DNA of 64,000 bases from Lunularia cruciata (lineage: Eukaryota; Streptophyta; Marchantiopsida; Lunulariales; Lunulariaceae): the NCBI GenBank assembly GCA_948567375.1, contig OX419759.1, positions 51,116,593-51,180,592 of the forward strand, read 5' to 3'. How positions within the stretch are numbered: the stretch's first letter is position 1; each line of letters begins with the position of its first letter. Positions 5,601 through 64,000 of this stretch are shown here, piece after piece. Position numbers and translations under genes: made by a program. Below the pieces are notes generated by a model. The model was not told the DNA's origin and ran no database searches. It was given only the letters and a program-made list of their open reading frames with translations.

Positions 5601-5789
5601 CTTAGAGGAGCACCAATGTAGTTGGACTCATAGATGGGCCAAACATCACCAATCTTTCATACTTTTTAGGGCACTACAAACAAAATTTATGGGTACTAGA
5701 CATCCTAGTGTAGGTGTGGTAAGTAGAGATGGAGTGAAACATTGACCAAATACTAATCAACCACCTACTTCTATTGAGTCTAGCACAAT

Positions 5790-6260: not shown

Positions 6261-6662
6261 TACAGGGGTGATTCCACATAGTATATCACATTTGAGGAGC
6301 TCATTGTCCAGATTTATATTGATCATTTAATTGATAATTTGGCAGTAAGAGCTCAAGCCATTGCAATAGTAGCAGAGTCATATGATGTGTTAATGGGAGG
6401 AATAGTGTTTATACTCCATGGGTTTAAGCATGAGGGTTAGGATATTAGGAGGAGAAAATATCCTATAGGCCAAGTTTGTATTCAAGTAAGGACATGTATA
6501 TCACCTAGGGTGGTCTTTAGTAATGGAAATCTTGGCTCATTAAATCAAAGACTATAACATCAATCTCAACTTTAAGTGGTTCCATTAATTGGCCTAGTGA
6601 GTTATTGGAGGAGAATTCACATACATAGAATTCCCTAATATAGAGAAGATCACTTGGATTTG

Positions 6663-8553: not shown

Positions 8554-8842
8554 ATTTGGAGTATAAGTATGATGAGTAGAGTTGTTCCATTCACTTAGGA
8601 TGTTCTTTTATGGAGTTCCAATGAGGAGTTGTAGTAACATGTAGATTAGCTGGTTGAGTAGGCTTGGAGTAGAGCCTTTGTATCACCAATGGACCAGGTT
8701 GAGGATGATCCTCTAGAATCTATAACCTTGTCACCTTTGGATACCACACATATTGCTTGGGAGTATCTAATGGAGTGAGTATGCTTATTTGAATTTCTTT
8801 GGTGGGATTAGCACTAGGATAGTTGCAACCTTGCAAGAAAAT
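8554..8842 (+). other. Start of the methyltransferase-like region of Z-A (motif I side)
   Basis: After the X-1 target duplication, Z-A resumes and aligns with Z-B 52335-52600. Near 8800 the sequence tttggtgggattagcac corresponds to the F-G-G-I motif I region of the methyltransferase-like domain seen more clearly in Z-C (63557-63571). The domain is interrupted by Y-2 just after motif I. About five bases (8838-8842) next to Y-2 have no counterpart in Z-B. Confidence 0.6.
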
Positions 8843-14064: not shown

Positions 14065-14489
14065 TGTAAAAGATTGAGTAGAGAAATAGTAGAATGGAAG
14101 ACCAGAGTGCAAAATCACATTAGTGCTATCAAGTGAAGGAACTCCCAATGCCAACTTGAGCTTGGATTTAGTATTTATGGGTAACTTGGGTACAAGACTC
14201 CCAAGGAGCTTCTAAGGAAGGTTCCTTCCAAGATTTGCCCTACTTGGAGTGCAAACTAAGCTAGTAATTTACTTGGCTTACAAGTTAAACTAACCGTCAA
14301 CTTGGTGTACAAGTTACTCTACCCTTGGAAAATTCATAGAAGCTTCTCACCACAAAGCTCCAGTGTGTTTCTAGAATAGTCTAGCTATAAGCTTTCTTGA
14401 TGCTTCTAACATATTCTTAGGCTATATTTAACGTAGACTATCAACTCATTAGCTTATATTAACTCAACTACTAACTCCATATTATTACA
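14065..14489 (-). repeat. 5' LTR of Y-2
   Basis: This 425-bp LTR has the same termini as the 3' LTR (TGTAATAATATGG to CTTTTACA on the minus strand). It borders the primer-binding site on its inner side and Z-A sequence on its outer side. Confidence 0.8.
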
Positions 14490-15400
14490 CAAGCATACAG
14501 ATTTAGAGGTACTTGTATGTGGAGAGGGATAAAATTGCTAAACAAGTCTCTCTACATCATGTGGCATACTTGGCCTAATGGTATCTTAAGTTATTACCAA
14601 TGCTATTAGTCAAGGCTAACCAAAACACCTTATTATCAAACATTTCCTTATTGGAGGTCTAGATCTAGAGAGACATGGTAATATTTAATTGGTGATTAAT
14701 AGATGGCTATGTAAAGGATACACTCATGTTGGCAAAGTTCAAGGTCTATAGGATCCACACTCTTATATATTTTAGGAGATATTATGTATATTATGGCATC
14801 TCTAGATTCATCAAGCAATTTCTCCAACAAACATTTTGGAAAATATCCCTTTGATATGTGATTCTTACACATTGGTGGTAGCAAGTACACATTAGTTTTG
14901 GTCTTGGATTGGACCTATTATGTTGTTAGATGCAGCTAAAGTTGGATCATGAGCTCATTAACTTTGTCTTTTGTGGGTAAACCTATAACCGAGAGAGGTT
15001 CTAAAATGTGCCTATGATGGTAGTTATCGACCATCACACCTTATTGTTAATGATATTTTGGACGTTGGGTGCCAATCTTAGATGGTATGAGTGGCTAGTA
15101 GGTCACTTATGGCAAAGGTGAACCTTGTAGTGCAGCCTAGAGCTACTTTACCTTCTCTCATGAGTTTCTCAACTTTGCATGCTTATCAAGAGGGATGCCT
15201 TGGACTTGTTTAGGACTCATAATTATAATAGTTGGTGAAGTCCAATGTCAATGAGAGAGAGCAAGCAATAGGTTTTTATATCAATATCACTACCATTTCA
15301 ATAGTGTTAGAGATATCTAAGCATCAAGTGTTAGTTAGATCATGGACTTGAACTATTTGACATGGATTGTGAGCCTTGGATTGGTTGAGCAACACATGAT
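14490..15400 (+). other. Second part of the methyltransferase-like region of Z-A
   Basis: It aligns with Z-B 52605-53350 and Z-C 62640-63500 (complement). Readable landmarks are a YVERD-like motif II near 14510-14530, a motif VI-like stretch near 14840-14855, and the later blocks near 14950-15000 that correspond to the conserved S-R-A-H-R segment in Z-C. The closing motif IX/X region falls near 15240-15390. It is heavily decayed and recognisable mainly through the better kept Z-C copy. Confidence 0.55.
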
Positions 15401-15439
15401 GCACTTACATGCATCACCACTCAAACTCTTGTGACACTC

Positions 15440-15640: not shown

Positions 15641-16079
15641 GTTTTTTTGCTCTAAGCTCGTGGACTTTAGCAATTGGAGGTATGACAACATTTCTCCTAA
15701 TGTCTCAATGTAGCAATTACTTAGTGCATCTTCCACCTCCATGATAGTTCTAAAGGATACTTGGGAGAGCCAAAAACTGGACCTAAGGTTATAAGAGAGG
15801 AAAGACAGAGCATTGGAGGTTCTTAAAGAGCTACACAAGTTGTTTTGCCTTGAGTATGAAAGATTTGGATGCTTTGAAGTGACATGGTATTTGGATTGAG
15901 TAAACTAATGATACACTAATCTTTTGACATCCCTCTAGATATAATTATATGGAGAGAGCCTTGATTTAGAGAATGAGTTGAGACCTTTTTGAGGCTAGTT
16001 TAGTTGAGATCTCACATGGAGAGTATGCTTCAACCACAATGATGCAAGCCAAGAAAGATATGCGTGATAACTACATGGG

Positions 16080-18146
16080 TAGGTGGATGCATGAAGATTA
16101 ACATCCTATCAATTGATAGACTTGTGTTAATTGGTAGGCTATACCTACACTAAATGAGACATTGGATGTAATCAAGCATGCAAAGGTCTTTAATACTTTG
16201 AATCTTTAAGCAAGGTCATCAATTGCCAATCTTGGAAGAAAAAAGTCAAAGATAGCATTCTAGGCTATTGATCCTCATGGTAAAGATATATTGTATCAAT
16301 GATATTTCTTAGCATTTGGGTTAAAGAATGCTCTTACCAAATTCTAAAGATTCATGGATAGGATCTTATGGGAATAAATTTTGCTTGATGTTATATTGAT
16401 GATATTTTGGTCTACGGTGCTACTATGGAGAAGCATGAGAGATATTGTTGGAGAGGTTTGAGAGATTAAGATCTCATGGACTCAAATTACACCTTGGGAA
16501 GTGTAGATTCTTCCAAGAGCAAGTTGAGCATTTGGTCATACTATCTATATTGGCAGACTTGGTGTTGAGTAGATCAAGGTGGAGGCTATTGCACATATTC
16601 CTTGAACTACACATTTGATTAAGTGCAAGTATTTCTTGGATTGGTGAAATTTTATTATTATTAATTTAATATGTAAGAGGATTTAGTGCAATTGCCAAGA
16701 CCTTGCCAAAGTGAACCAAGCTTACATACAAGTGGTGTTGGGAAGATGAGCAAGCAAGAGCTTTTATGGAGCTCAAGAAAAGGTTGACATCATCTCTTAT
16801 CCTTAAGAGACCAATCAAAGGACATCTATTTCAAGTTCATTCTGATTGGAATATGTTGGGACTTGAAGCATTGGTCACTTAATAGGATGAGGTGGTAGCC
16901 TACACTTGTCACTCCAAGAATTTAGCAAAAGCCAAGTACAATTCCTAAGAGTTAGAGTGTTTAGTTGTAGTATGGGCAATAGCACATTTCTAATATTACT
17001 TATTTGGAAACCACTTCATTCTCATCACTAATCATCAACTAATGAAATGGTTGATGGAGTTGAGCAGACATTCAAGAAAGCTTACATGATGAGCTTTGAT
17101 TTTATAGGTTTATGATTTCATGATTGTTCATAGAACTAGAGTGGTGGGCCATGATACAAATAGATTGAGTAGAAACCCATGCACTTGCCAACATGGTCAA
17201 ACAAGAGCATCTTGGCATGGTGAGATGGATGAAGTGATGGTTCCAAGTTGGAATGCATTTGCTTTTTTTATATATTGAGGCTTTGGTGTTATCTCTCTCA
17301 ATACATATAGAAAAATTTATTGGGGTCATGATCCAAAGATTAGAGATATTGGTATGGGTTAGCATGATATTCATGATGATGTCTTGGTGATGGAATATCT
17401 TTACATGGGTTTTGTGGGTGGTATAATTAGTACCAAAGAGAGAGAAACCATGTCCTTTAGCAAGCCAAACAGTTTAGATTGGAAGGTAGACATCTCTTTA
17501 GGTATGGGAGGATGGTAAGATGCAAGTAGTACCCCTTCTATCTCAAAGACCATAATTGGTATGACATACTCATGAAGAGCTAGACATTTTGGAGTAAAGT
17601 AGACATATAGTTTGCTTTAAAGTCATTTTTAGTGGCCCAACATGCATTTCAATGTACAATAGTTTGTTGACAAATGTGTAGATTGTGATAGAGTTAGAGT
17701 GTCATTCAATGCTCCTATACTACAATTACACCTAACATTGGTTGGATTATTCCTAGAGTTTGGATTTTATTGGACCATCACCATTGATTGTGAGATATCA
17801 TCCAAATGTTTTGGGAGTGGTGGATCACTTCTCTAAGTAGATTACATTGGTGGCACTTCTTGACAAGTCAAATGAAGGGACAACTTACTTATTCCTAGAT
17901 TGAGTTCTTAGTCATTTTGGTGCACCAATTGAGGTCTTGATTGACCAAGGTATAGAGTTTTTGAGAGATTTTTAGGTCTTGTGTGACAAGGTAGTGTGAT
18001 CACTATAGTATCTCCCAATATCACCTTTAGGCAGATGGTTTAACAAAGAGAGTTTTTTAGATAGTGAAGAGAGGATTGTATAAATATAGTTTGTACAAAG
18101 ACCACTTGGGAGATTGGGATCTCTAATTATCTTGGTTGGCTATAGG
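16080..18146 (+). other. RT, RNase H and first part of integrase of Z-A
   Basis: The reverse transcriptase region is about 16080-16700, with the Y-I-D-D-I-L-V-Y block near 16390-16420. RNase H is about 16740-17170 (an F-Q-V-H-S-D-W segment near 16830). Integrase runs from about 17480 and includes the H-E-E-L...F-G-V zinc-domain region near 17570. It continues to the W insertion at 18147 and resumes at 24433. The same order is seen in Z-B and Z-C. This is a fossil copy with many breaks. Confidence 0.65.
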
Positions 18147-18731
18147 TGTAATACTCCAAGGACAAGAGAACTCTCTAAGAGAAATACAAGAGAGAAAATG
18201 CAAGTTTCACACTCAATACTCTGATGCCCCAAAGGAGCACCTTCTCTTTATTATATAGCAAAGGAAATCCCCTCAAAGGAAGCTCCACCCTTGGATTAAA
18301 TCCATGGATTGGTGACCTATCAACGGGCTCCATCCTTGGATTAGTTGTTTCAATGGGTGACATGTCAATCCTTGTCCTACCTAGTTGGTCAAATGGAATC
18401 TTTAGAGAATCTTCATATAGGGAGCTCAAAATTGCATAGGTGAGGTACCATTGGGAAGCTATAAACAAGATAATTCATATGGGGGAGAAGGTGAGCTTTT
18501 TTGCCTAAGAAGGGAGGAATCTTTCTATTTTAAGGGCCTAATTCATCCAATTAGGTCTCTAAAATTAGCTCTAAAGTTTTCAGGCTATTTCTAACTTTTG
18601 CCCTATAAGTAGAAGTACTCTTTTGGTGACACCTTTGTTTGATCTTCTTAGCTCATTGTACACAAAATCCTTCTAGATATTACCAAGCCAATTTTCACCT
18701 CCAAATAATATATCTAGCTACTTGTATTATA
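18147..18731 (-). repeat. 3' LTR of W
   Basis: This 585-bp LTR reads tgtaatactccaagg ... cttgtattata on the plus strand. It pairs with 23834-24432. A TATA-like ctatataataaag on the minus strand lies near its promoter-proximal part. Confidence 0.85.
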
Positions 18732-23833: not shown

Positions 23834-24432
23834 TATAATACTATGAGGATAAGAGAACTCTTCAAGAGAAATACAAGAGAGAAAATGCAAATTTCACACT
23901 CAATAGTCCGATACCCCAAAGGAGCACTTTCTCTTTATTATATTGCAAAGAGGATCCACTCAAAGGAAGCTCCACCCTTGGATCAGATACATGGATTGGT
24001 GACCTATTAGTGAGTTCTATCCTTGGATTAGTTGTTTCGATGGTTGATATGTCAATGCTTGTCCGATCTAGTTTGGTCAAATCCATTTGACCAAAGAGAA
24101 TCTTTAGAGAATATTCCTATAGGGAGCTCAGAATTATGTGGGTGAGGTACCATAGGAAATCTCTCAATGAGATGAATCATAGGAGGATAAGGCAAGCCTT
24201 TTTCCATTGAGAGGAGAAAATTCTTCCATTTTCAAGGCCTAATTCATCCGTTCAGGCCTTCAAAATTGGCTTTATACTTTTTTGGCTATTTTTTACTTTT
24301 GCAGTATTATTAGAAGTACTATTTTTGTGACACTTCTATCTGATCTTCCTAGCCCATTGTACATAATATCCTTCTAGATGTTACCAAGTCAATTTTCACC
24401 TCAAGATAATATGTCTAGCTCCTTGTATTACA
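23834..24432 (-). repeat. 5' LTR of W
   Basis: This 599-bp LTR begins TGTAATACAAGG on the minus strand and borders the perfect TSD atagg on its outer side. It pairs with 18147-18731. Confidence 0.85.
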
Positions 24433-24730
24433 ATAGGCTATTGGTTTATCTAGTAAGCCTCCTTTGCAACATTCTCTCCTTCTCTCTCTCCCATAGAGTA
24501 AGCTCTATATATGAGATCTAGATTTACCTATAGCCTTTGTCATGCTGTGATTGTAGTTTTGGACTTGGATGATATGGATGTATGGATGAGCATATGTTCT
24601 CAACATGCAAAGATCTTTTGGAGAGTGATGCCTATGGCCTTTGAGAACTTAGCAATGCTCAACATAGGGATACCTTACATTACAATACTATTTAAGGAGG
24701 AGGTTATAGACCCTTGATCCATTCATTCCA
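24433..24730 (+). other. Integrase C-terminal part of Z-A
   Basis: Z-A resumes after the W target duplication with ataggctattgg. It aligns to the complement of Z-C near 59560-59840, which covers the end of the integrase and the sequence leading to the PHD segment. Confidence 0.6.
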
Positions 24731-24879
24731 TCTAATTCATTATATATATCTATAGTAGATTGCATGAACAACTCTTGATGTGACTAGAAGCCACATTATC
24801 TTAAGAGTACAGGAGGTTTTACCTTCCAAAGTCTTTATGTTAGAAGGAGATGGTATTGTTGTTTAGAAGGATCAGGTGT

Positions 24880-25075
24880 GCAATTATGCATGATGAAACC
24901 TCCTAAAAATTGATGGCATGATGGACCCAAGTTGGAAATTGTAGGTGTAGGCTTGTGGTATATGTTATGTGGCTCTTGGAGTAAAGTTGCTATTATGTTA
25001 GTGTGTGATAGTTGTTTGAGAGGATAGCATATGGCATGTTTGATCCCTCCCAAGGGTGTTGACTATGTCCTTGAT
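24880..25075 (+). other. PHD-finger-like segment of Z-A
   Basis: The plus-strand sequence gtgtgcaattatgcatgatg ... gatagcatatggcatg is a decayed version of the PHD-encoding stretch that is intact in Z-C (59191-59400). Encoded residues equivalent to N-C-A-Q-C, D-G-T-M-D-P-S and W-H-M-A-C remain recognisable, spread over the region. Apparent short open frames on the opposite strand here are shadows. Confidence 0.55.
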
Positions 25076-29029: not shown

Positions 29030-29642
29030 TTTTTAGAGTTTATGTTTGACATTTATATGATTTTTGCTTCTATAGTGTATGATATTAATCATACACTATA
29101 TGTTCATGTATATGGATAACAACTATCATGATATTTGTAGCATTGAAGCTAGTTTTCTAGGATGCTTGAGTAACAATTTTGACAATCATTGTGGAATCAA
29201 CATTTGCTCAAGGACTACTTAGTGATGGCTCGATAAAATGTTAGGTCAATTGATTGCACTATTGAGCTATTATTTTCACTATTAGATGGGCCTTTATATA
29301 CACCATTAGGGCTAGATTCTTTGGCCACTCTAGAGGAAGTATACCTCAAAGTGCAGCTCTAGAGAACTCAATTTTTCTTTGTTGAGGCTTTAAGCTCTTG
29401 GGTATAGTGGATAGTGGCATGTGAGCATCACTTGGATTCTCTTAGCTCAAGTAGGTATGGCTTGAAAATATGATCATGGCCTATTTGCAGTTTCTATTGA
29501 GTGTTGAATGCTCAAATTTAAGACATGATCTGAATTTTGATTGATTGATTATTGTAGGTCTTTGGAGTTTGTGTGTGACTTCTATATGAGTTGTGCTTTT
29601 ATAGTGTATCATGTTGATAACAATGTATATACATATAATATA
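29030..29642 (+). repeat. 3' LTR region of Z-A
   Basis: It starts near tttttagagtttatg and ends near ataatata, matching Z-C 58361-59021. A segment of about 100 bp containing cttctatagtgtat occurs at both edges (about 29030-29123 and 29555-29642), as in Z-C. The inner core starts near 29124 (tatcatgatatttgtag). Confidence 0.65.
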
Positions 29643-36395: not shown

Positions 36396-36860
36396 TGTCA
36401 TGCCATTTGTAGCATCACACCTAGATTGCTCGGACTCTAGAGTAGTAATGTTGGTAGTCATGAGTATTTTGGTAGTTACTCATAGACTACTTGTTGATAA
36501 ATAGATTTTATGTTCACGATATTGACTACATAGTAGGGCCCACTATCACTTGCACCATTTGGACCATCGGGTGTGCCGTCAGCGGGACATTTAGGGTTTG
36601 TGACCTAGCTCAAGTCCAAGGGGTATACTTTTGAAGTGCAGTTCCAAAGAGCTTACTTCTCTAATGTTGAGCCTTCTAGTTCTTGGCTATGGTGTACAAA
36701 GGCCAACGAGTGTCACCTAGATTCTATTAGTTAGAGTGGGTATGGCTTGACTATAATCAATGCCCAATTGTTGGCAAATTATTGAGTGACAGATTAAGTA
36801 TTGATCTGGTTGAGTGTGATTCAAGTTGTGTAAATAAACTAATTACATCAGAAAAGTGAG
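36396..36860 (+). repeat. 5' LTR core of Z-B
   Basis: It begins tgtcatgccatttgtagcat and shares with the Z-C LTR complement the blocks cagcgggac, agctcaagtcca.ggggtata, gttgagcctt and gagtgacagat.aagta. It runs into the V insertion at 36864. The upstream edge of the LTR is disturbed by X-5 and W-s2. Confidence 0.75.
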
Positions 36861-37553: not shown

Positions 37554-37557
37554 TTTT

Positions 37558-47747: not shown

Positions 47748-47756
47748 AGGGGTAAA
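47748..47756 (+). other. Polypurine tract of V
   Basis: aggggtaaa directly precedes the 3' LTR, the usual plus-strand priming site. Confidence 0.6.
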
Positions 47757-49429: not shown

Positions 49430-51350
49430 TATGAGGTACTTTGACTTTAGAGCTTTGGTGCTATGGTGTGCTCTTGATAGTGAGGCTAAAGTGATAACCA
49501 GTCAGACTACCTATGTTTCTCTTTGGTGAGGTAGGAAGTGATGACCTACAAAACGTGAGAATGCATGTTGTGATGGGAGGTTATAGGTTGCAATTTCTCC
49601 TAGTGTAGTTGTCATAGTTAGAGTTACATTAGTCAATGATGTTTAGTTGGTAATGTTGGCACTTGGAGGTATTCGCACTTGGTGGAGTACTTGTAGAGGT
49701 TCCAATTGCAAGTTGCAGTTCTTGGTTACTTTGTCATGATGGAGTTCTTTAGGGATTTCAAAGGAGATAGCACTGCAATATGCAATGGGTTTACTTAGAG
49801 TGGTGCTCATTATCAATCTGTAACTCAGGTCCCAGTGAAGGAGGAGATTGACTTTGAGTTGGAGTTTGACACAAGAGCTGATTCAGTTGAGAGTACACTT
49901 GGTGTGTCTACACTATTGTTGTGGGACATGGACAAGATTTATGGGGCCTCCAAAAGTCCCAGGTGTTACTCTAGTATAGTGGGTACCATTGAGTTAGATG
50001 ATTTCATTTAGGAGTTTGATAGTTGGTGTGATCTACAATAGACCCGACTTTGTTCACACCCTTCATGGCATGAAAAGGGTTGTTTTAGCATTTAGAGGGT
50101 CTATCAATGGACAACTACCATGAGTTTAGGAGAGCTCACTTGGAGGAGATTGAGCTATGAAGGTAGTATTGGTCTTCAAACTATGTCTCCATTACTTCAG
50201 GCTCAATTTCTAGAGGTAGATTGGCTATACCCACAAGTTTTAGCTCTCGTAGTGTTGGTGGATCTCTTGGAGATAGTGCTACTACGAGTGAAGGTACAAC
50301 TATAGGAGGTGGTGTAGTACCGGGATCTAACCCCATGGTGGAGTTCTTCTAGTGTTAAGCTGAGGAGCTTGTAGGAGTTCCAACATAAGGCTCAAGAGAG
50401 CTTACATGAGGCATGAACTCAAGGAGTTACGAAGGCCCAAGAAGTCCCATTTTGGTATGGGATACTGGACAAGGAGTAATGATGTAGAGTATATGATGCT
50501 ACATTGTTATAGGCTACTTTGCCTACTTTGGCAGTGGTCTTTGGTTTGGTTGAGCATATTTAGCTCAACATGTTGGAGGAGAGAGTGGTGATATCTGGAT
50601 TTGGTAGGGAGATCTTATCCAAAATTATTACTTCTTCTAGAGTACAGTAGAGTGCACCATGCTATGTTGGTTTTTGAGCACAGGTTGGACAGCCTAGATC
50701 CTATGGAGCAAGTAGAGGGCCTAGTGTTGCTAGACCTTTACCTTCATTTTTGGGTCAACAAGCCAATGAGTGGTGGTGTTGCTTGTTGGACTTGTGGTGG
50801 ACCTCACCATATGAGAGAGTGCACTCATGTTAGCTAACCTAATACCTCTAGTGCATCATAGCCAACATAGAGATAGTGTGAGCATTGCCACAGATTTGGT
50901 CACACTAGTGACCAAATCTGTGACCTACGCTCATAGTTATGGAATGGTAAGGCGGCTATGGCAAGTGGTAGAGGAACTCCAGGTCATGGAGGACAAGGCA
51001 ATAGAGGTGGTGAAGAGGATCCATACCTAATAGGGGTGCAATACTTTCCCTTACTTATGATATAGCCATGGCTACTTGCAATTGGAGTTGAGATTGGCTA
51101 GCATGGCCATAGCTCAAGGGAGATCAGATTCAAATGTTGAGGCTTCTACCTCATATGTTGGTGATAGAGACATTTTGGATTTTATGTGCGGAGCAACACA
51201 AGTGGATGCATCTATTGCAATGACTAGGAGTGCAGTATGTGCTCTAGAGCATAGAGGAGCATCAGTGGAGTTGGACCCACAAAGAGGAGAGGTTGGTAGA
51301 CAAGTCAGACTTCCCCAATGTTTTACACTCTCTAAGGCACAATAAATGAC
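49430..51350 (+). other. gag region of Z-B
   Basis: It has two zinc-knuckle-like motifs: C-W-T-C-G-G-P-H-H-M-R-E-C (about 50785-50825) and C-E-H-C-H-R-F-G-H (about 50880-50925). The remainder aligns with Z-A gag. Broken in several places. Confidence 0.65.
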
Positions 51351-51719
51351 ATCTATGGCTCCTAAATGTCCTAGTGCAGGTGTGGTAGGTGGTGATGGGG
51401 TGCATGATGGACTACCTACAAGACAGCCATTACTACTACACAGACTAAGTCTAGCATGATGTTGGAGGTGGCTCAGCTGATTATGCACTTTGCATTATTC
51501 TCAACTAGTGATATGTTGGGAGTTGACCCAACCCCAATGTTTTGGTTGGCTACCACGCTTTGTGAAAGTAAAGATGATGTGGTTCTTACTATTAGATTAG
51601 AGGTGGTTAATAGTGGAGTTGACTTGGTTGAGGAGCATGAGATCCACTCTACAACCAATGGTTTATGGCAAGCAACAACAGCTAGATTGGAAGAGTAACC
51701 AACTAGACCGGTCTTTGAG

Positions 51720-52150
51720 TAAGCATAGTTTACACCTGGGGTTGTCCTATTTGATAACCAAAAGGGGATTTTTTGGTTGGTGGGACCTTCAAGGAAGGTT
51801 TATACATCATAGATGGTCTTAGTTGACTTTGGTGTGCAGCCTTTTATGTTGGGAAAGGCTGCAATTGTTGGTCTAAAGTTATAGAAGACCGATGTAGAGA
51901 GGTGTGGTTCTACACAATACATCATTTGTATGTCTCTAGGAGGTGGTTCTACACAATACATCACATGTGGAGAGCTTTTTGTCCAAATTCAGCTTGGTCA
52001 TCCAATTGATAGCTTTGTGGTGAGAGCCCAGGCCATTGCGATTGTGGTTGAGTTCTATGATGTGTTAGTTGGGGGAACAGTGCATATCCCATGGGGTTTC
52101 AATATTGACTATTGGGAGGAGACAACCTCCTATAGACCAGGTTGGCAGTC
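51720..52150 (+). other. Protease region of Z-B
   Basis: It is equivalent to Z-A 6060-6440: LFDNQ...FWLVGPSRKV is followed by a protease active-site-like segment and Q-P-F-M-L-G-K (about 51810-51860). It precedes the methyltransferase-like region. Fossil copy. Confidence 0.5.
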
Positions 52151-52499
52151 TGGTGAAGGACAAGTATATCATCTACTAATATGCTTCAATAGTGGCAATC
52201 TTGGCTCACTACAATCTGGAACCATGGCGGCTTTAGTTTCAGCTTTCAATGATCCTATTACTTGCCAAGTGAATTATTAGAGAGGAATGCCCATGCAGAG
52301 GATACTCCAATACCAAAGGAGATCATTTGGATTTGGAGTACAAGTGAGATTGTTCCATCCACATTGGATGTTCCTTTGTGGAGTTCAAAGGAGGCATTGT
52401 AGCAGCATGCAGATGAGTTGGTGCAACAGGCTTGGAGTGGAGCCTTTGTACCACTAGGCAATGAGTGTGAAAATGAGCCTCCAGAGTTGATTACCTTGA

Positions 52500-53355
52500 C
52501 ACCTCTAGATACCACACTCATTGCTTGGTAGTATCCAATAGAGGGAGTATGTCTATTGGAGTTGTTTGGTGGGATTAGCATTGGACTAGTTGCGGTACTA
52601 CAAGTGGGTACACGAGTACATATCTACTTGTATGTGGAGAGAGATGAGATTGCTAGGCAAGTCTCTCTCCATTATGTGGCACACTTGGCCTATTAGTATC
52701 ATGAGTTATTACCAATGTCAGCAATCAGGGTTAGGAGAAGGCCCTACCAACAGATGTTTCCTTGCTGGAGGCACATGATCTAGAGAGACATGGGCCTATT
52801 CATTTGGTGATTTTTGGATGGCCATGTAAGGGAAATATACGTATTGGTCTTAAGGTTTGGGTCTTGAAGAACCCTATTTTAGTGTATTTTGGGAGATGTT
52901 ACAACATCTCTAGGTTCATCAATCCGTTTCTCCAACTTACATTTTGGAGAATGTCCCTTTGATGGGTGATTCTTGCACTCAGGTGGTGGTGAGTACGCAT
53001 TAGGTCCATTCTTGGATGGGACCTGCTGTGTTGTTACATGCAACCAGAGTGGGATCATGGGCTCATCATCTTCATCTTTGGTAGACAAACCTCTTACCTA
53101 GAGAGGTTCTACAATGTGCTTATGATAGGATTCAGCAACCAGACCACATCATTGTTGATGACATCTTGGATGTTGGGCATTAGTCTTAGATGGTGGTAGT
53201 GGTTGATAGATCACCTATGGCAGTGGTGAACCTATTTGGGAAGCCCAGAGCTACTTTTCTCACACTTATGAGTTTCCTAGGCTCCCATGCTTTTTGAGAG
53301 GGAGGCCTTGGACTGGTTTGGGACTCATAGTTACAGTAGTTGGTGGAGCTCAACA
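52500..53355 (+). other. Methyltransferase-like region of Z-B, motifs I to VIII
   Basis: Visible motifs of cytosine-5 DNA methyltransferases: motif I L-F-G-G-I (about 52560-52575), motif II Y-V-E-R-D (about 52630-52645), motif IV H-L-V-I-F-G-W-P-C-K-G (about 52800-52833, carrying the Pro-Cys that holds the catalytic cysteine in active enzymes) and motif VI L-E-N-V-P (about 52942-52960). The VIII-like block follows at 53040-53090. The order I-II-IV-VI-VIII is canonical. Q interrupts the domain at 53356. The copy is decayed, but motif IV is especially clear here. The family assignment is mine, from motifs only. Confidence 0.7.
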
Positions 53356-54539
53356 CTATTGCGGGATTTTTCTGGTCTCAAGAGTGAACTGAGCACCTGG
53401 CTGCTTGTGCTTAGATTGCTCTTGTCGTTGATGACTTGAGACTTCTCTTAGTTTGACACTCTCTCTCTTACTCTGGTATGGTCTGCAATCTCATCCTCGA
53501 TAGGGCAGGTTGTTCTAATCGCTCCCAATGGTAGGCTTCTCTTAGGGTTTGTATGTTGGATCTTGTAGATTAATGCTAATCTCTGTAGAACTGTTGTGTT
53601 TGGCCTCGTGGCTCTACTCCTATATTGTCTTGTTTCCAATTCTCTTTCATGCTCAGGTTTGTGGGTTTGGATCAGACGGATTCTTAGATAGGTTCTGATG
53701 AGACTTATGGAGTAGTCATAAATGAATTAACCATGATCAAACCCAGGTGTCCAGATCACTGAACTATGTCAATCACATAGACTAGACCAAGAGCTCCAAA
53801 AATGGAGTCCTTCCCTTGACAATATTCATAACTTAGAGTGCACACATTTATTCACAAATCATCATTTTAACCAGTCTTGTAGTTATAATTTGGACAAAGG
53901 CAAACAACTCTTCTCTATGTAGTGACCACACCTAACTCACTAGCTGTCCAATCAACTCATTCCAACAAATCTTTCCATCCTTGTCCAATCACAGACAACC
54001 AGCCTTCTCAACCTCTTCTCTTTGATGCACTATCACAGTCAAGACAAGAGCACTCTAGAAAATTCATTGTTCTTCTTTGTTGGCACAACCAAGCATTTCT
54101 CTCTTCCTTTTGCCCAGACTTTCCCCTTGAAGGTTCCCCTGTCTGATCTTACCTTCTCATTTGATGCATCATCTCTCTTCCTTCTCTTTGCTCATACAAG
54201 CAACATCTCTCACCTTCAAAGTTCTCCGCCATAACCCTTTAGCCTATAAGGAAAATAATGAATTCTTCTCTCCTTCTGCTTTTGCACAGCCAATTGCCTC
54301 CCTTTTGAGATTTCTCTCTTTTGCAGCCTTCATCAAAACCTTCACCTTCTTTCCTTAAATCCTCTCTGGCCTTGCTTCAGCCAAGGACCTTCTTTCTGAC
54401 CAATCGAAGCTTCTCCCAAACCCTTTCATGGCACTTCACTATCAAGACTTCTCTCTCTGACCTCTCAAAGCATCTTTTGAAGCCTAAATGTCCTGTCCAT
54501 TTGCCAAAGAAGAGTCCTTTAGCCTGTTCATTCAAGGTA

Positions 54540-54990: not shown

Positions 54991-55009
54991 CTGCTCTGTT
55001 ATCTCCTCT

Positions 55010-56154: not shown

Positions 56155-56500
56155 CAACAATGCCAATGAGAGAGAGAGAGTGGGTGATGGGTTTTTGTAC
56201 CGGTATTACCATTGTTCCAACAATGTAAGAGGCATCTAGGTAACCTGAACAAGAGAGGAAATACCAAGAGTTTGGAGGTTCTTGAGGAGCTACACAAGTT
56301 CTTTTGCCTTTATCATGAAGGATTTGGGTGCTCTTATGAGACCTGGTATACAAATTGAGCTGACTAGCAATATACCAGTTTTTTGACATCCTTATCAACA
56401 TAGTGATATGGAGAGAGCATTGATTTAGAGCCAGAGTAGTGACCTTTTTGAGGCTGGTTTGGTGGAGATTTGACACGGAGAGTATGCATCAACTACAATG
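56155..56500 (+). other. End of methyltransferase-like region and linker of Z-B
   Basis: aatgagagagagagagtggg...atgggtttttgtaccggtattacc corresponds to the motif IX-side block E-R-E-R-V-M-G-F-C-T-G-I-T of Z-C (62745-62785). Much of the linker present in Z-A and Z-C is absent here. Confidence 0.55.
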
Positions 56501-56529
56501 ATGCCAACCAAGAAGGATATGCATGAAAA

Positions 56530-58360
56530 CTATATAGATAAGTGGATGTGTGGAGATTACCGTCTTATTAACCAATAAACTAGGGCTGATTGGTATGCCA
56601 TGCCTACACCGGAGGAGATCTTTGATGCAATTGGGCATGCAAAGGTCTTAAGTACTTTGGATCTTTGAGCATGATATCATCAGTTTTTGATCAAGGAGGA
56701 GGATAAGTCCAAGATAGCATTTTGAGCTATTGATCCTCATGGCAAGGATGTGTTATATTAGTGGAGGTTCTTACCATTTGGGTTAAAGAATGTTCCTACT
56801 GAGTTCTAGAGGGTCATGGATAAGATTTTAGTTGGATTGGATTTTGCTTGGTACTACATTGATGACATTTTGGTCTATAGCACTATGATGGAGGAGCATG
56901 AGAGATATTTGTTGGAGGTGTTTGAGAGATTGAATCTCATAGACTCAAATTCCATCTTGGGAAGTGTAGGTTCTTCCATGAGCAAGTTGAGTATTTGGGT
57001 TACTCTATCTACCCCGGAGGACTTGGTGTTCAGTAGACCAAGGTAGAGGCTATTGCACATATTCCTTGACCTACAAATGTGAGCAAAGTGCAAGCATTCC
57101 TTGGGTTGGCAGAATTGTATCATCACTATGTTAGAGGATCTAGTAGTGCCATTGCCAAGGCCTTGATGAAGCTGACCAAGCTTATATAAGAGTGGTGTTG
57201 CGGAGATGAGCATGAGAGAGCTTTTATAGAGCTCAAGGAGAGGTTGACATCTGCTCCTATTTTGAGGAGACTGATTAGAGGACGACCACTTCAGGTTCAC
57301 ACTAATTGGAGTATGTTGGGGCTAAGAGCAGTGCTCACCCAATATAATGATGAGGAGAAGGAGTTTTTGGTGGCCTATGCTAGTTGCTCCAACAATTTAG
57401 TGGAGGCAAAGTATAGTTCATATGAGGGAGAGTGCTTGCTGCAGTTTGGGCAATAACATATTTTTGATGTTACCTATTTGGTAACCCTTTTACTCTCATC
57501 ACTTATCATCAGCCAGTGAAGTGGTTGATGGAGTATGACAAGCTTTCAAAGAAGCTTGCACAATGGGCTCTGATTTTTCATGAGTATGATTTCATGGTTA
57601 TTTACAAACCTAGAGTGGTGAACCATGATGCAGATGGGTTGAGTAGAAACCCATGTCCTAGCTAGTAGGATCAGACCGGAACATGTTGGCATGGTGAGAC
57701 AAATGAGAAGATGATGCCAGGTTGGCATGCATTTTCCTTTCTTTGTATATGTTTTGAAGCTTTGGTGGTATCTCCCTTAGCGCATACATGAGGAGTTATT
57801 GATGTCACAAATCCAAAGCATGGAGATAGTGATATAGCTCAACAAGACATTCATGATGATGTCTTAGTGATGGACTATCTTTGCATTGGTGTTGTGAGTT
57901 GCACAATTGGGACCAAGGAGAGAGATTGTGTTCTTCAGCAAGCCAAGCGGTCCAGATTGGAGAGAAAACACCTTCTTTGTGTATGGGAGATGGTAGAGTG
58001 CAAGTAGTACCACTTCCATATCAGAGACCATAGTTGGTCCGTCATGCTCATGAGGAGCTAGGACATTTTGGAGTAAAGCATACATAAAGCTTACTCCAAA
58101 GTCATTATTGGTGGTGCGGTATGCAGACTAATGTACAACAATTTGTTGCAAGATGTGTGGTTTGTGACCAAGTTAGAGCATCATTTAATGCTTCTATGCC
58201 ATAGTTACACCCATTACCTATCATGGGATTGGGTTATCATGGGATTTTTTAGACTTGCTAGACCTTTACCGTTGACTATGAGATATCATCGATATGTTTT
58301 GGTGATGGTGGAGCACTTCTCCAAGTGGATTGAGTTGGTTGCACTTCTTGACAAGTCCAA
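56530..58360 (+). other. RT, RNase H and partial integrase of Z-B
   Basis: The RT catalytic block Y-Y-I-D-D-I-L-V-Y-S is near 56850-56880. RNase H landmarks (V-H-T-N-W-S and E-G-E-C-L) occur near 57290-57440. The integrase zinc domain is near 58040-58190 and the core start (V-M-V-E-H-F-S-K-W) near 58300-58330. The sequence stops abruptly at the Z-C LTR at 58361. Fossil copy. Confidence 0.75.
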
Positions 58361-59021
58361 TGTTGTGCATATATACATCGCTACACAACAACATCACTGT
58401 CAACATCATACACTATAGAAGCACAACTCACACATAAGTCATACATAGACTCTAAAGTGCCACAATAATCACATTGCTTAACACTCTCAACTCAACTCAA
58501 CTCAGATCAGTACTTGATCTGTCACTCTATAAACTGCCAACAACTGGGCACTAATTACATTCAAGCCACACCCACTCAAGCATATAGAATCCAGGTGATG
58601 CTCACCGGCCTCTGTCCACCATAGCCAGGAACTCGAAGGCTCAACATCAGAGAAGTGAGCTCTCTAGAGCTCACTTTGAAACTATACCCCCTGGACTTGA
58701 GCTAGCACTAAAACACTAACGGTCCCGCTGACGGCACACTTAATGGTGCAAATGGTGCAAAGTGACGGTAGGCTCCACCGTGAAGTCAGTACCCCGAACA
58801 CATAATCTAACCGTCGGAAAGTAGTCTTTGAGAAACTGCTAGAATAACTCTAACTGCTATCACTGGAACTCTAGTGTCCGAGCATCTAGATGCGGAACTA
58901 CAAATGGTGTGACAGCTGTCGTGCGTATATACATTGCTAAACAACATACATTGATGTCAACATCATACACTATAGAAGCACAACTCACACATAAGTCATA
59001 CATAGACTCTAAAGTGCCACA
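58361..59021 (-). repeat. 3' LTR region of Z-C
   Basis: On the minus strand it runs from TGTGGCACTTTAGAG, just after a purine-rich gggaggcga, to GCACAACA. About 105 bp are repeated at both edges (58361-58466 and 58919-59023), of which 66 bp are identical (58401-58466 and 58958-59023). A second possible TG boundary is at 58914 (TGTCACACCATTTGTAG), so the LTR limits are ambiguous. Confidence 0.7.
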
Positions 59022-59190
59022 ATCGCCTCCCTAGCTGGCGGTTAGGTCCCTCTAACTCCAGATAGCCATCTACTCTAAGTATATGGTATACCCTCTAATG
59101 GGCAAAGATCAGGAGGCCGGGTGCTATGGAGCCCTATTGTTAGTCGCTTGTCTACAATCTATACCATATAAAGAATGAACTAGCTATAGG

Positions 59191-59490
59191 TCAAGTACAT
59201 CTAGGACATAACCACTGTCCCTGAGGAACCACCGTGAGGGGAGGAGTCATACATGCCATATGCCATCCTCTCAAACAACTATCACACACTAACATAGTAG
59301 CAGCTCTACCTGAAGAGCCGCATAACATACACCTCAAGCTTGCACGTACAAGTGCCAAGCTTGGGTCCATAGTACCATCAATGTTTGGAAGGTGGCATTG
59401 TGCACAATTGCGCACATGATCCTTCCAAACAACACCATCACGTCCTTCTAACACAAGGACTCCAGATGGCAAAGCCTCGTGCACTCTCAA
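59191..59490 (-). other. PHD finger downstream of integrase in Z-C
   Basis: On the minus strand the sequence encodes L-R-C-M-L-C-G, then V-C-D-S-C-L-R-G-W-H-M-A-C, then W-L-C-P-R-C. This fits the C4HC3 cross-brace of a PHD finger, with the conserved W two residues before the last Cys pair. Upstream is another Cys pair (N-C-A-Q-C) with D-G-T-M-D-P-S, possibly an extended zinc region. PHD fingers read histone H3 tails, commonly methylated or unmodified K4. In this position it would replace the chromodomain of chromoviruses as a targeting module; that role is inference. It is open over about 100 codons and lies between integrase and 3' LTR. Confidence 0.85.
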
Positions 59491-59499
59491 GATAATGCG

Positions 59500-59760
59500 G
59501 CCTGTAGAAACATCAAGTGTTGATGGTGTTGTCTGTTGTAGATATACATAGTTGCCTAGATGAAATTAACGGATCGAGGGTCTATAACCTCCTCCTCGAA
59601 TGGTAGCATAGCGTAAAGTATCTCTATGTTGAGCAATTGCCAAGTTCTCAAAAGCCATCGGTATCACTCTCTGAAAGATCTTTGCCCGCTGAGAACACGC
59701 GCTCATCCATACATTGGGGTCATCCAAGTCCAAAACTACAGTAGCATCTTGACGAATGGC
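59500..59760 (-). other. Integrase to PHD connecting segment of Z-C
   Basis: Non-repetitive sequence linking integrase and PHD finger. It aligns with Z-A 24450-24880. No domain was recognised. Confidence 0.5.
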
Positions 59761-59769
59761 TGCATGTTA

Positions 59770-60560
59770 ATCTGGATCTCGTCCACAGAGTAGAAAGTAT
59801 GGAGAGAAGGATGCTAAGGAGGCTTGCCGGCTAAACCAATAGCCCATGGCCAACCAAGGTAATTGGAGATCCCAATCTCCCAAGTGGCCTCTTTGCAAAC
59901 CATACTTTTGCAATCCTCTCTTCACCGTCTGAACCACTCTCTCTGCTAAGCCATCTGCCTCAGGGTGATCTTGGGATGTAGTATGATGATCAATCAAAGC
60001 CTTGTCACACAAGACCTAAAACTCCCCCAAGAACTCTGTACCCTGATCAACCAAAACCTCAGCTGGTGCACAAAAATGACTAAGAACTCGATCTAGGAAT
60101 GAGTAAGCTGTCCCTTCACTAGACTTGTCAAGAAGTGCCATCAACTCAATCCACTTGGAGAAGTGCTCCACCATCACCAAAACATACCGATGATGTCTCA
60201 CAGTCAGCGGTAAAGGTCCGGCAAAGTCCAAACTCCAACGGTAACCCAATCCCATGATAGGTAATGGGTGTAATTGTGGCATAGGAGCATTGAATGATGC
60301 TCTAACTCGGTCACAAATCACACATCTGGCAACAAACTGCTGTACCTTGGTCTGCATACCGCGCCACCGATAATGACTCTGGAGTAAGCTATACGTACGC
60401 TTTACTCCAAAATGTCCTAGCTCCTCATGAGCATGACGGACCAACTGTGGTCTCTGTGATGGAAGTGGTACTACTCGCACTCTACCATCCTCCCATACAC
60501 GCAAAAGGTGTCTACCCTCCAATCTGAACCGTCTGGCTTGCTGAAGAACACAGTCTTTCT
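59770..60560 (-). other. Integrase of Z-C
   Basis: The zinc domain (H-A-H-E-E-L-G-H-F-G-V and C-V-I-C-D) is followed by W-S-L-D-F-A-G-P-L, L-V-D-Q-G-T-E-F and A-D-G-L-A-E-R-V-V-Q, supplying the DDE triad. V-M-V-E-H-F-S-K-W-I-E lies between them. It resembles plant gypsy integrases. Upstream of it (60560-60768) lies a stretch specific to this family. Confidence 0.88.
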
Positions 60561-60829
60561 CCTTGGCCCCAACTGTGCCACCCACAACACCAGTGCAAAG
60601 ATCGTCCATCACTAAGACATCATCATGAATGTCTCGCTGAACTATACCAATATCTTCACTCTTTGGATTTGTGACCTCAATAACTCCTCCTGTATGCGTT
60701 GAGAGAGATACCACCAAAGCCTCTACAAATATACACAGAAAGGCTGATGCATGCCAACCTGGCACCATCTCCTCATCTGTCTCACCATGCCAACATGCTC
60801 CGGTCTGATCCTGCTAGCTAGGACATGGG

Positions 60830-61250
60830 TTTCTACTCAACCCATCTGCATCACGGTTCACCACTCCAGGTCTGTGAACAACCGTGAAATCATACTCCTC
60901 AAAAATCAGAGCCCATCGTGCAAGCTTCCCTGAAAGCTTGTCGGACTCCATCAACCACTTCAGTGGCTGATGATCAGTGATGAGAGTGAAGGGGTTACCA
61001 AATAGGTAACATCTGAAATGTGCTACTGCCCAAACTGCTGCCAAGCACTCTCCCTCATATGAAATATACTTTGCCTCCGCTGAATTGTTGGAGCGACTAG
61101 CATAGGCCACCACAAACTCCTTCTCCTCATCATCATGTTGGGTGAGCACCGCTCCAAGCCACAACATACTCCAATCAGTGTGAACCTGAAATGGTCTTCC
61201 CTTGATTGGTCTCCTCAAAATAGGAGCAGATGTCAACCTCTCCTTGAGCT
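60830..61250 (-). other. RNase H of Z-C
   Basis: Landmarks are F-Q-V-H-T-D-W-S, S-Y-E-G-E-C-L-A-A-V-W-A-V, L-I-T-D-H-Q-P-L-K-W-L and the closing N-R-D-A-D-G-L-S-R-N. All are typical of gypsy RNase H. Confidence 0.9.
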
Positions 61251-61960
61251 CTACAAAAGCTCTCTCCTGCTCATCTCCCCAACACCACTTCTGTGTAAGC
61301 TTGGTCAGCTTTGTCAAGGCCTTGGCAATGGCACTAAATCCTCTAACATAGCGGTGATAGAAATTTGCCAACCCAAGGAATGCTCGCACTCTGCTCACAT
61401 CCGTAGGCCAAGGAATACGTGCAATAGCCTCCACCTTGGTCTGCTGAACACCAAGTCCTCCGGGGTAGATAGTGTGACCCAAATACTCAACCTGCTTGTG
61501 GAAGAACCTACACTTCCCAGGATGTAATTTGAGTCCATGAGATCTCAACCTCTCAAACACCTCCAACAATTGTTGCTCATGCTCTTCCATAGTAGTGCTA
61601 TAAACCAAAATGTCATCAATATAGCACCGAGCAAAATCCAATCCAGCTAGGATCCTATCCATGATCCTTTAGAACTCAGCAAGAGCATTCTTAACCCAAA
61701 TGGTAAGAAACTCCACTGATATAACACATCCTTGCCGTGAGGATCAATAGCCCAAAATGCTGTCTTGGACTTATCCTCCTCCCTGATTGGCAACTGATGA
61801 TATCCCGCTTGAAGATCCAAAGTACTGAAGACCTTTGCATGCCCAATTGCATCAAAATCTCCTCCGGTGTAGGCATGGCACACCGATCAGCCCTGGTCTA
61901 TTGGTTGATAGGACGGTAATCTCCACACATCCGCCTATTTGTATAGTTGCCATGCATATC
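61250..61960 (-). other. Reverse transcriptase of Z-C
   Basis: L-D-L-Q-A-G-Y-H-Q-L-P-I, F-L-P-F-G-L and the catalytic C-Y-I-D-D-I-L-V-Y-S (about 61597-61626) are present. Y-L-G-H-T-I-Y and F-L-G-L-A-N-F-Y-H-R-Y follow. Same subgroup as Z-A and Z-B. Confidence 0.9.
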
Positions 61961-62189
61961 CTTCTTGGCTGGCATCACTGTTGCTGATGCATACTCTCCA
62001 TGTGAAATCTCCACCAAACCAGCCTCAAAAAGGTCACTACTCCGGCTCTAAATCAATGTCCTCTCCATATCACTATATTGACAAGGACGTCGGAAAATTG
62101 GTGTGTCGTTAGTCAGCTCAATCCGTATACCAGGTCCCTTTAGAGCACCCAAATCCTTCATACAAAAGGCAAAACAACTCGTGTGACTC

Positions 62190-62640
62190 CTCAAGAACCT
62201 CCAAACCCTCCGTCTTTCCTCTCCAGTAAGCTTGGGTCCAAGATCTGGCTCCCAAGTATCCTCTGTAATTGTAGTAGGAGTGGAAGACGTACTGATTGGC
62301 TGCTACACTGGGCCCTTGGGAGCAATAGTGTCATGCTCCTGACCACTAGAGGTCCCAACCTTTGTGCAAAAAACTCCCTCCACTCTGGTTGCAAGCTCCA
62401 GACGTCCTCTGGCTGCATCCCATGAGGACCAAGGGTGTAATCCAAGTAGCCCATGCTCACCTGGATGGACTCCAAGTAGACCACTCTCCCTAGTAGCTAC
62501 TGGATGTGTCCAAAGAATACCATGTCCACTCGGTCCACCGTCCCCAGCATGTGCCTGAATTGTCTCGATAGGCACAGGGCTCACAAGTGTCCGAGTGGTG
62601 ATGCCTATCAAGCGCATCCTATGCTGCTCTGCCAAGCCAA
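62190..62640 (-). other. Linker with short peptide repeats in Z-C
   Basis: Repeated motifs L-L-G-V-H-P-G-E and G-L-L-G-L-H-P lie between the methyltransferase-like domain and reverse transcriptase, as in Z-A. Probably a flexible linker or processing region; no family recognised. Confidence 0.5.
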
Positions 62641-63600
62641 GGCTCACAATCCAGGTCAAACAATTCAGGTCCATAGCCTGTCCTAACACCTGACGCTTGG
62701 ATGCCTTTGACACTGCTGGAACAGCGGTAATACCGGTGCAAAAACCCATCACCCGCTCTCTCTCATCAGCGTTGGGCTCCACCAACTGCTATAACTGTGA
62801 GTCCCAAACAAGTCCAGATCCTCCCTCTCAAAAAGCATGAGAGCTTGGGAAACTCATGAGTGTGGGAAATGCGGCTCTAGGCTGTCCAACTAGGTTCACC
62901 ACTGCCATAGGTGACCTATCAGCCACTACCATTGTCTGAGACTAACGCCCAACATCCAAGATATCATCAACAAGAATGTGGTCTAGTCGTTGAATCCCAT
63001 CATAAGCACACTGTAGAACCTCTCTGGGTAAGAGGTTCATCCACCAAAGATGAAGACGATGAGCCCGTGATCCCACTCTAGCTGCATCTAACAATACAGC
63101 AGGTCCCATCCAAGAATGTACCTGATGTGTACTCGCCACCACTCTGGTGCAAGAATCACCTAACAAAGGAATGTTCTCCAAAAGGTAAACTGGAGAAACA
63201 GACTAATGAACCTGGAGATGTCGTAGTATCCGTAACATCTCCCAAAACACACCAGAACAAGGATCTTGAAGACCCAAATCACGGCCTGCACGTGTATGTC
63301 CCTAACATGGCCATCTAGAAATCACCAAGTGAATAGACCTATGTCTCTCTAGGTCATGCGCCCCCAATAAGGAAATGTCTCCTGGTAGGGGCTTCTGGTA
63401 ACCTCTGACTGCTAACATTGGTAATAACTCCGGATACCGATAGGCCAAGTGTGCTACATGATGTAGAGAGACTCACCTAGCAGTCTCATCTCTCTCTACA
63501 TATAAGTACCTCTGTACTTGTATACCCGCCTGTAACACTGCAACTAGTCCGGTGTTGATCCCACCAAACAACTTCAATAGGCATATCTCCTCTACTAGAT
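62640..63600 (-). other. Cytosine-5 DNA methyltransferase-like domain of Z-C
   Basis: Motifs in order on the minus strand are: I, L-F-G-G-I-N-T-G-L (about 63545-63571, SAM-binding F-x-G-I-x-x-G); II, Y-V-E-R-D-E (about 63482-63500); IV, R-W-P-C (about 63303-63315); a G-L-Q-D stretch with V-F-W-E near 63240-63270; VI, L-E-N-I-P (about 63165-63181); VIII-like, V-G-S-R-A-H-R-L-H-L-W-W (about 63025-63065); IX/X, R-V-M-G-F-C-T-G-I-T and L-G-Q-A-M-D-L-N (about 62660-62755). The order is canonical, not the permuted order of plant DRM enzymes. The VIII-like block recalls S-A-A-H-R-A-R-Y-F-W of DNMT3/DRM proteins. The domain sits between protease and RT; no activity is implied for this broken copy. 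Confidence 0.78.
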
Positions 63601-64000
63601 ACTGCCAAGCAATGAGTGTGGTATCCAGAGGTATCAAAGCAATTGCCTCTAGAGGCTCATCCTCACACTCATCTCTTGATGGTACGAAGGCTCCACTCCA
63701 AGCCTGCTGCACCAACTGATCTGCATGTTGCTGCAATGCCTCCTCTGAACTCCACAATGGAACATCCAAGGTGGATGGAACAATCCCACTTGTACTCCAA
63801 AGCCGAGTGATCTCCTCTGGTACTGGAGTATCCTCTGCATGGGCGTTCCCCTCCAAGAAGTCACCAGGCCAAGTAACTGCAGCACTGAAAACTGAAAGCT
63901 AAAACTGATGCTGCCATGGTCCCGGACTGTAGTGAGCCAAGACTGCCACTACTGAAGCATACTAGTAGGCGAAATACCCGTCCCTCACTAGAGTGCCAAC
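63600..64000 (-). other. Sequence upstream of the methyltransferase domain in Z-C
   Basis: It encodes an acidic segment with P-V-P-E-E-I-T-R-L-W and D-V-P-L-W-S-S-E-E-A-L-Q-Q-H. It aligns with Z-B 52190-52500. It may be the N-terminal extension of the methyltransferase-like domain; no known domain was recognised. Confidence 0.5.

Follow-up and report, generated by a model that had tools for sequence, protein, structure and literature searches.

Evidence for a Ty3/gypsy retrotransposon family with a DNMT3-type cytosine-5 methyltransferase between protease and reverse transcriptase in the liverwort Lunularia cruciata

The window analysed here, by which we mean the whole stretch of 64,000 nucleotides from the liverwort Lunularia cruciata (contig OX419759.1), contains three copies, found by self-comparison and tblastn, of a Ty3/gypsy retrotransposon family named Z; homology supports the presence, in this family, of a cytosine-5 DNA methyltransferase (DNMT) between protease and reverse transcriptase (RT). 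Retroelements with a captured DNMT were described by de Mendoza et al. (2018; PMC5890265): DIRS and LINE elements in dinoflagellates, and a Gypsy element in Klebsormidium. An earlier interpretation made from the letters alone (the sequence-only reading) had pointed to precedents in a few algae and dinoflagellates; such precedents do exist, but the closest of them, KnitGypsy-Dnmt3, is nearer than was thought, being itself a streptophyte Gypsy element. What appears to be new here is the occurrence of DNMT-carrying Gypsy elements in liverworts and mosses, the basic combination being known from a streptophyte alga.

The methyltransferase of the third copy, Z-C, is read on the minus strand from 63898 to 62480 in a single frame of 473 codons, including six stops, and its catalytic core corresponds to 62640-63600. 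The Pfam profile DNA_methylase (PF00145), which the sequence-only reading had proposed as a check on the translations, gave no support by itself: the raw Z-C stretch scored 14.9 bits (E 0.018) against a curated cut-off of 22, and the single-frame translations of the other two copies, Z-A and Z-B, had no match. Rejection of the domain on these weak scores was set aside, because the copies are decayed and frameshifted, which explains the scores, and because the domain is established by homology. In fact, 70 proteins among 7,997 candidates scored were homologous to the Z-C domain at E<=1e-3, with 41-74% identity over the aligned parts; the best (E 4.1e-177) comes from the liverwort Calypogeia fissa and more come from Sphagnum, Marchantia and Riccia. 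The Pfam cut-off was passed by six of nine scanned homologues (three of five and three of four). At the level of homology, the cytosine-5 methyltransferase of Z-C can be taken as confirmed.

The methyltransferase motifs had been claimed to stand in canonical order, and our motif reading of Z-C (I, II, IV, VI, VIII, IX, X) bears this out, position included. Motif coordinates are the first bases of the first and last codon, and motif numbers were assigned in this analysis:

62480..63898, minus strand: protease-DNMT linker and DNMT3-type methyltransferase domain of Z-C; core about 63600-62620; best homologue E 4.1e-177
63577-63523, minus strand: motif I
63508-63478, minus strand: motif II
63331-63247, minus strand: motif IV
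63193-63157, minus strand: motif VI
63097-63028, minus strand: motif VIII
62872-62857, minus strand: motif IX
62779-62728 and 62698-62653, minus strand: motif X, in two pieces

The Pro-Cys pair is kept in Z-C, with a stop after it, and in Z-B, and is Leu-Cys in Z-A; Glu-Asn is kept in all three copies. The copies, all of them decayed, are 73-85% alike across the DNMT stretches.

The enzyme is of the DNMT3 type, to which it is closest in sequence and fold. Its motifs follow the order I-IV-VI-VIII-IX-X without the rearrangement typical of DRM; in a profile search of the PDB, DRM chains align over profile positions 386-511 only and DNMT3A aligns over 388-573, its motif X stretch being weak. In an alignment of 21 rows (A2), W185, P186, C187, E230, N231, V232 and P233 are conserved at 90% or more. 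The structure prediction that worked was that of the homologue P0004, with 87 sequences; a prediction of P0003 with 21 sequences was poor (mean predicted local distance difference test score, pLDDT, 43.3) and was not used. NCBIfam, run on five homologues, returned only a model of the dcm superfamily, at 37-42 bits against a cut-off of 100.65.

The domain had been placed in the same slot of all Z copies, and this holds: it lies between protease and RT in Z-A and Z-B, and its RT side is confirmed in Z-C. Z-A extends from about 2330 to 29617, with interruptions at 6660-8553, 8843-14489, 18149-24430 and 25162-28924; Z-B extends from about 36396 to 58361 and contains a younger element, X (36866-48447), and a 2.8-kb insert (53358-56154); Z-C, which lies on the minus strand, takes up the rest from about 58400 and continues past the last base of the window (64000). 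In Z-A and Z-B, homology reveals gag, protease, DNMT, RT, RNaseH and integrase in that order, the proteases too being recognised in this way. The visible part of Z-C goes from the protease-DNMT linker through the region of the long terminal repeat (LTR), with RT (from 62254 onward) downstream of DNMT; the protease and gag of this copy would fall outside the window, past 64000. The order protease-RT-RNase H-integrase is that of Ty3/gypsy elements, RT, RNase H and integrase of Z-C scoring above Pfam cut-offs, and LTRs in direct orientation are found in Z-A, where 2330-2672 and 29176-29519 are 76% identical on the same strand. The LTRs are given as parts, their exact ends, the primer site and target-site duplications not being fixed. 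Matches to the window are reported for 10 of the 70 query proteins; P0071, P0076 and P0040, named below, are Marchantia proteins:

60814..62254, minus strand: Z-C RT and RNase H (RVT_1 1.6e-14, RT_RNaseH 2.8e-34; tblastn to P0076)
59332..60813, minus strand: Z-C integrase (Integrase_H2C2 6.5e-17, rve 6.9e-8)
58400..59134, minus strand: Z-C 3' non-coding region and LTR, ends not fixed (matches Z-A 28925-29617)
2330..2672, plus strand: Z-A 5' LTR part (direct repeat with 29176-29519, 76% identity)
4201..5318, plus strand: Z-A gag region including knuckle region (tblastn of P0071 residues 2-360)
5767..6428, plus strand: Z-A protease region (tblastn of P0071 residues 510-729)
8599..8836, plus strand: Z-A linker and DNMT start, after insert 6660-8553 (tblastn of P0071 residues 818-899)
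14489..15404, plus strand: Z-A remaining DNMT domain, after nested element 8843-14489 (self-comparison, tblastn)
15817..18147, plus strand: Z-A RT, RNase H and first part of integrase (homology, tblastn)
24421..25060, plus strand: Z-A rest of integrase and PHD finger, after nested element 18149-24430 (tblastn of P0040)
29176..29519, plus strand: Z-A 3' LTR part (direct repeat with 2330-2672)
36396..36815, plus strand: Z-B 5' LTR part, directly before element X (78% to 58914-58495 of Z-C)
49928..50927, plus strand: Z-B gag region including knuckle region (tblastn of P0071 residues 1-350)
51444..52262, plus strand: Z-B protease region (tblastn of P0071 residues 512-782)
52265..53357, plus strand: Z-B linker and most of DNMT domain (homology, motifs, tblastn)
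56172..56240, plus strand: Z-B DNMT motif X piece, after the 2.8-kb insertion; the stretch with UAG-CAR-YYA, the stop context treated below, is missing
56249..58361, plus strand: Z-B RT, RNase H and first part of integrase (self-comparison, tblastn)

Proteins from other bryophytes repeat this arrangement. P0071 (1278 aa; a cluster of 18; UniRef label CCHC-type) contains a gag part, a protease and, at its end, a DNMT that passes the Pfam cut-off, the gag match being weak (E 0.054); P0076 has DNMT, RT and RNase H above cut-offs in one model, with a protease motif ahead; and P0040 joins DNMT pieces, integrase-like sequence and a PHD finger. In P0090, a homologue of unnamed source, protease and DNMT both pass their Pfam cut-offs. 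When 135 fetched homologues were scanned with simple motif patterns, 29 had both protease and motif IV, with the protease first in all 29; the other 106, many of them short, had no match to one or both patterns. The proteins of Marchantia, Calypogeia, Sphagnum and Riccia (P0071, P0074, P0076, P0001, P0012, P0038 and others) share the homologous DNMT, preceded by the protease where both are present, and their source labels are hypothetical, unnamed or domain names, in some cases "DNA (cytosine-5-)-methyltransferase"; a description of them as retrotransposon DNMTs was not found in the literature searched. A profile built from 21 homologues matched 379 proteins at E<=1e-3; among the 120 of these that were listed, most without organism name, no Klebsormidium nitens protein is named.

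In a tree of 65 domains (62 of the 87 A3 proteins, with at least 230 domain residues, and the three Z copies; midpoint root, no outgroup), the Z copies form one clade with support 1.0 beside groups of Calypogeia, Sphagnum and Marchantia (nearest nodes 0.79-0.87). The Marchantia sequences stand together (0.81), as do the two from Calypogeia (0.998), and those from Sphagnum are mixed with unnamed sequences.

These data bear on the claim that the domain belongs to the element and is not a chance capture, which is supported because all three window copies have the DNMT and because proteins of Marchantia, Calypogeia and Sphagnum show the same fusion of protease and DNMT. A recent capture by chance in one ancestral copy, with no role for the domain, might be argued from the decay of all window copies and from evidence for constraint that is no better than moderate; it is very improbable, since the domain occupies the same slot in copies of the above likeness and the Marchantia and the Calypogeia sequences each group together in the tree, and it was rejected because the fusion is shared across hosts, liverwort and Sphagnum alike.

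A relative with open frames, L001, was found in a prokaryote genome collection, where 13 stretches matched the search pattern and one encoded a relative. It is a contig of 9,285 bases filed under a cyanobacterial (Synechococcales) metagenome-assembled genome, where it is most likely a eukaryotic contaminant; its ends share 127 identical overlapping bases, as would be expected for an element assembled as a circle. L001 carries two long open frames that are in phase with each other. The first (3-3491) encodes a DNMT above the Pfam cut-off, a protease under it (20.5 bits, cut-off 24.3) and a knuckle-like CCHC seen by eye; the second (3492-6635) encodes RT, RNase H, integrase and PHD, all above cut-offs. 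No inverted repeats were found in L001 at a minimum length of 40, and one of its non-coding stretches had no match among plasmids. Two pattern scans of viral contigs (22 and 33 matches) gave no relative; 202 phage records had a match, the five listed being 24-31% identical.

The frames of L001 also dispose of the possibility that a host DNMT3 gene lying by accident next to retroelement pieces was misread as part of them. Land plants do have true DNMT3 genes (PMC6453930), but L001 has protease and DNMT in one frame with RT in phase after the stop, in Marchantia models such as P0076 protease, DNMT, RT and RNase H form one protein, and three copies lie within 64 kb; this account is contradicted on all these grounds, was rejected, and is extremely improbable.

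The boundary between DNMT and RT carries a stop codon in a particular context. UAG-CAR-YYA is the consensus for efficient readthrough in tobamoviruses (PMC3542737), and L001 shows the type I arrangement, with this signal between two in-frame open reading frames (ORFs): TAG CAA TCA at 3489-3497, between two open frames in phase. The homologous place has TAG CAG CCA in Z-C and TAG CAA TTA in Z-A, within decayed frames, and the stretch is lost in Z-B:

62297..62305, minus strand: Z-C UAG in frame, with CAGCCA after it, closing the gag-protease-DNMT frame; fits UAG-CAR-YYA
15711..15719, plus strand: Z-A UAG followed by CAATTA, DNMT/RT boundary; fits UAG-CAR-YYA

The context is shared by 5 of the 2,408 TAGs in the window and by 2 of 190 in L001, where the nonamer TAGCARYYA is found twice against 0.36 expected. 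The codon that follows CAR varies (Ser, Pro, Leu) but YYA is constant, which points to selection on RNA rather than on protein at this stop. The boundary UAG is probably a leaky stop, with the DNMT in the Gag-protease frame upstream of it. If readthrough works as in tobamoviruses, the DNMT would be as abundant as Gag and RT-integrase less so, and the enzyme is predicted to be present at Gag level and packaged. The frame boundary of element X is TGA CCA (44525-44530) and not UAG-CAR-YYA.

The integrase of Z-C, 70.7% identical to that of P0040 over 60093-59194, ends in a further domain:

59197..59331, minus strand: Z-C PHD finger at the integrase C-terminus (PF00628 1.2e-10, 41.7 bits, cut-off 24)

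The PHD finger scores 39.9 bits in L001, which like Z-C is above the curated cut-off of 24, 36.7 in P0040 and 23.5 (5.6e-5), just under the cut-off, in Z-A. A PDB search with the PHD finger gave 123 matches, and the 60 listed are PHD-finger proteins, including CHD4, KMT2D, PHF12, PHF21A, KDM5 and AIRE. Several of these proteins bind histone H3 unmethylated at K4.

We propose, tentatively and with a probability of about 0.3, a joint interpretation in which a DNMT3 was captured once by a Gypsy element, before land plants arose or early in their history, and the lineage was kept in liverworts and mosses. The tobamovirus-type leaky stop would place the methyltransferase in the Gag polyprotein at Gag dosage, and the PHD finger of the integrase, of a kind related to readers of unmodified H3, would steer insertion, so that the element would arrive already methylated in chosen chromatin. 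Animal DNMT3 pairs a PHD-like ADD domain with the methyltransferase, and the element would hold a split version of this pairing. A genome parasite carrying the type of enzyme that is used to silence parasites would reverse the usual picture of an arms race; moreover, since it occurs in liverworts, the laboratory plant Marchantia among them, and in Sphagnum, a tractable plant is available for testing why a retrotransposon would methylate DNA, and the leaky stop provides a concrete prediction that can be checked, namely an enzyme packaged in Gag amounts.

Selection was assessed through pairwise ratios of nonsynonymous to synonymous substitution (dN/dS), which for the DNMT domain are 0.54 (Z-A/Z-B), 0.40 (Z-A/Z-C) and 0.39 (Z-B/Z-C), and for RT-RNaseH, in the same order of pairs, 0.49, 0.40 and 0.68. 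Neutral simulations under four settings of transition and CpG bias, with 40 runs each, gave DNMT means of 0.68-0.83; of the three observed values for this domain, two fall under the 95% range of all four settings, and the third lies inside the range of two of the four. Taken together, these values argue moderately for a constraint on the DNMT of the same order as that on RT.

Several observations weigh against these readings of the element. The bootstrap intervals of dN/dS (0.37-0.75, 0.29-0.54 and 0.28-0.56) overlap the neutral ranges. The window shows no excess of the nonamer (5 occurrences against 5.64 expected), so that the readthrough argument rests on position at homologous boundaries, and the three boundaries represent at most two independent lineages, Z-A and Z-C being related copies. 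Base composition gives no sign of self-methylation: the observed/expected CpG ratio is 0.03 in Z-A, 0.12 in Z-B and 0.36 in Z-C, but depletion is as strong in DNMT-less elements (0.27 in X, 0.15 and 0.04 in nested ones), and L001, with its DNMT, is hardly depleted (0.78 in frames, 0.91 outside). CpG/CHG depletion was therefore rejected as a sign of self-methylation. CWG depletion is strongest in Z-A (0.19), several of the measured elements being CWG-depleted, and depletion at both CpG and CWG is in keeping with CG and CHG methylation by a plant host. A self-methylating role of the enzyme is speculation. Finally, the DNMT is less conserved than the RT-to-PHD part between L001 and Z-C (45% against 61% identity), and KnitGypsy-Dnmt3 gave no detectable methylation in yeast, a result that its authors call inconclusive (PMC5890265).

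The last two points would also suit a domain that mainly binds nucleic acid or has a structural function within Gag and contributes little catalysis. Such a role is unlikely, because the catalytic-type residues are conserved in A2 as expected for a working enzyme. It is likewise unlikely that the methyltransferase has the host or competing elements as its targets in trans, silencing for example parts of the host genome or rival retrotransposons, and not the cDNA of its own element. A soluble product could leave the particle, and spill-over onto the Symbiodinium genome is discussed by de Mendoza et al. (PMC5890265), but the Gag-side position suggests packaging, and K. nitens, which has Gypsy-Dnmt3, has a land-plant-like methylome (PMC5890265).

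The window contains other repeats. Element X has LTRs (36866-37554 and 47759-48447) about 98% alike, large open frames at 43325-44527 and 44528-46846 split by TGA, and RT, RNase H and integrase above cut-offs, with weak protease and zinc-knuckle matches and no DNMT match among the matches listed; its RT shares 73% identity with a protein of Marchantia and 65% with one of Riccia over the matched parts, values that, with the likeness of the Z-C integrase to Marchantia, agree with a bryophyte host, perhaps a liverwort, and X includes tandem 1.35-kb repeats, 90% alike (39403-40760 and 40761-42104). The 2.8-kb insertion in the DNMT of Z-B (53358-56154) has tandem repeats at 54540-55369. The nested LTR element in the integrase of Z-A (18149-24430; repeats 18149-18729 and 23836-24430, 81%) has a minus-strand gypsy-like RT at about 21474-20272, and related sequences lie at 30476-31213 and 35595-36321. 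The element nested in the DNMT of Z-A (8843-14489) has repeated ends at 8843-9266 and 14065-14494 (71%), and its part 12106-14319 matches 13-2134 at 69%. A pure TA repeat of 55 units occupies 32011-32120. Scans for tRNA and Rfam families found nothing.

As for known systems, land plants have been said to lack elements of this kind (PMC6338049), and a paper of 2025, citing the 2018 work, mentions DNMT3s in retrotransposons of streptophytes. In a survey of plant LTR retrotransposons from 2019, the main text never uses the words "methyltransferase" or "PHD" and never names Marchantia, and the literature searched, with most subscription papers and preprints outside its coverage, has no report of such elements in bryophytes, nor of a leaky stop or PHD finger in them. 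Z answers to the description of KnitGypsy-Dnmt3 as a Gypsy element with a Dnmt3 domain in its polyprotein, the comparison being made by description only: both are streptophyte LTR Gypsy elements with a non-rearranged Dnmt3-related domain, which in KnitGypsy-Dnmt3 is under purifying selection (PMC5890265). They differ in that the host of KnitGypsy-Dnmt3 is a charophyte alga and that of Z is a land plant, and in that its methyltransferase is placed by the authors in the Pol ORF (PMC5890265), whereas in the Z family it lies in the Gag-protease frame. They may also differ in their repeats, which are described as DIRS-like for KnitGypsy-Dnmt3 (Figure 4 legend, PMC5890265); Z-A has direct LTR parts. 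PHD has no occurrence in the main text of that paper, and sections 9-11 of it make no mention of a leaky stop (PMC5890265). SymbioDIRS-Dnmt3 and SymbioLINE-Dnmt of Symbiodinium are likewise retrotransposons with a captured cytosine methyltransferase, and the SymbioDIRS enzymes are active in yeast (PMC5890265), but they belong to other retrotransposon classes (DIRS, LINE) and to dinoflagellate hosts. The exact type I readthrough consensus of tobamoviruses is also found at the ORF1/ORF2 boundary of the Z family; in tobamoviruses the signal lies inside the replicase gene, whereas here it would separate Gag-protease-DNMT from RT-integrase. Chromoviruses, which are Ty3/gypsy elements, also have a chromatin-reader module at the integrase C-terminus, with a chromodomain where the Z family has a PHD finger.
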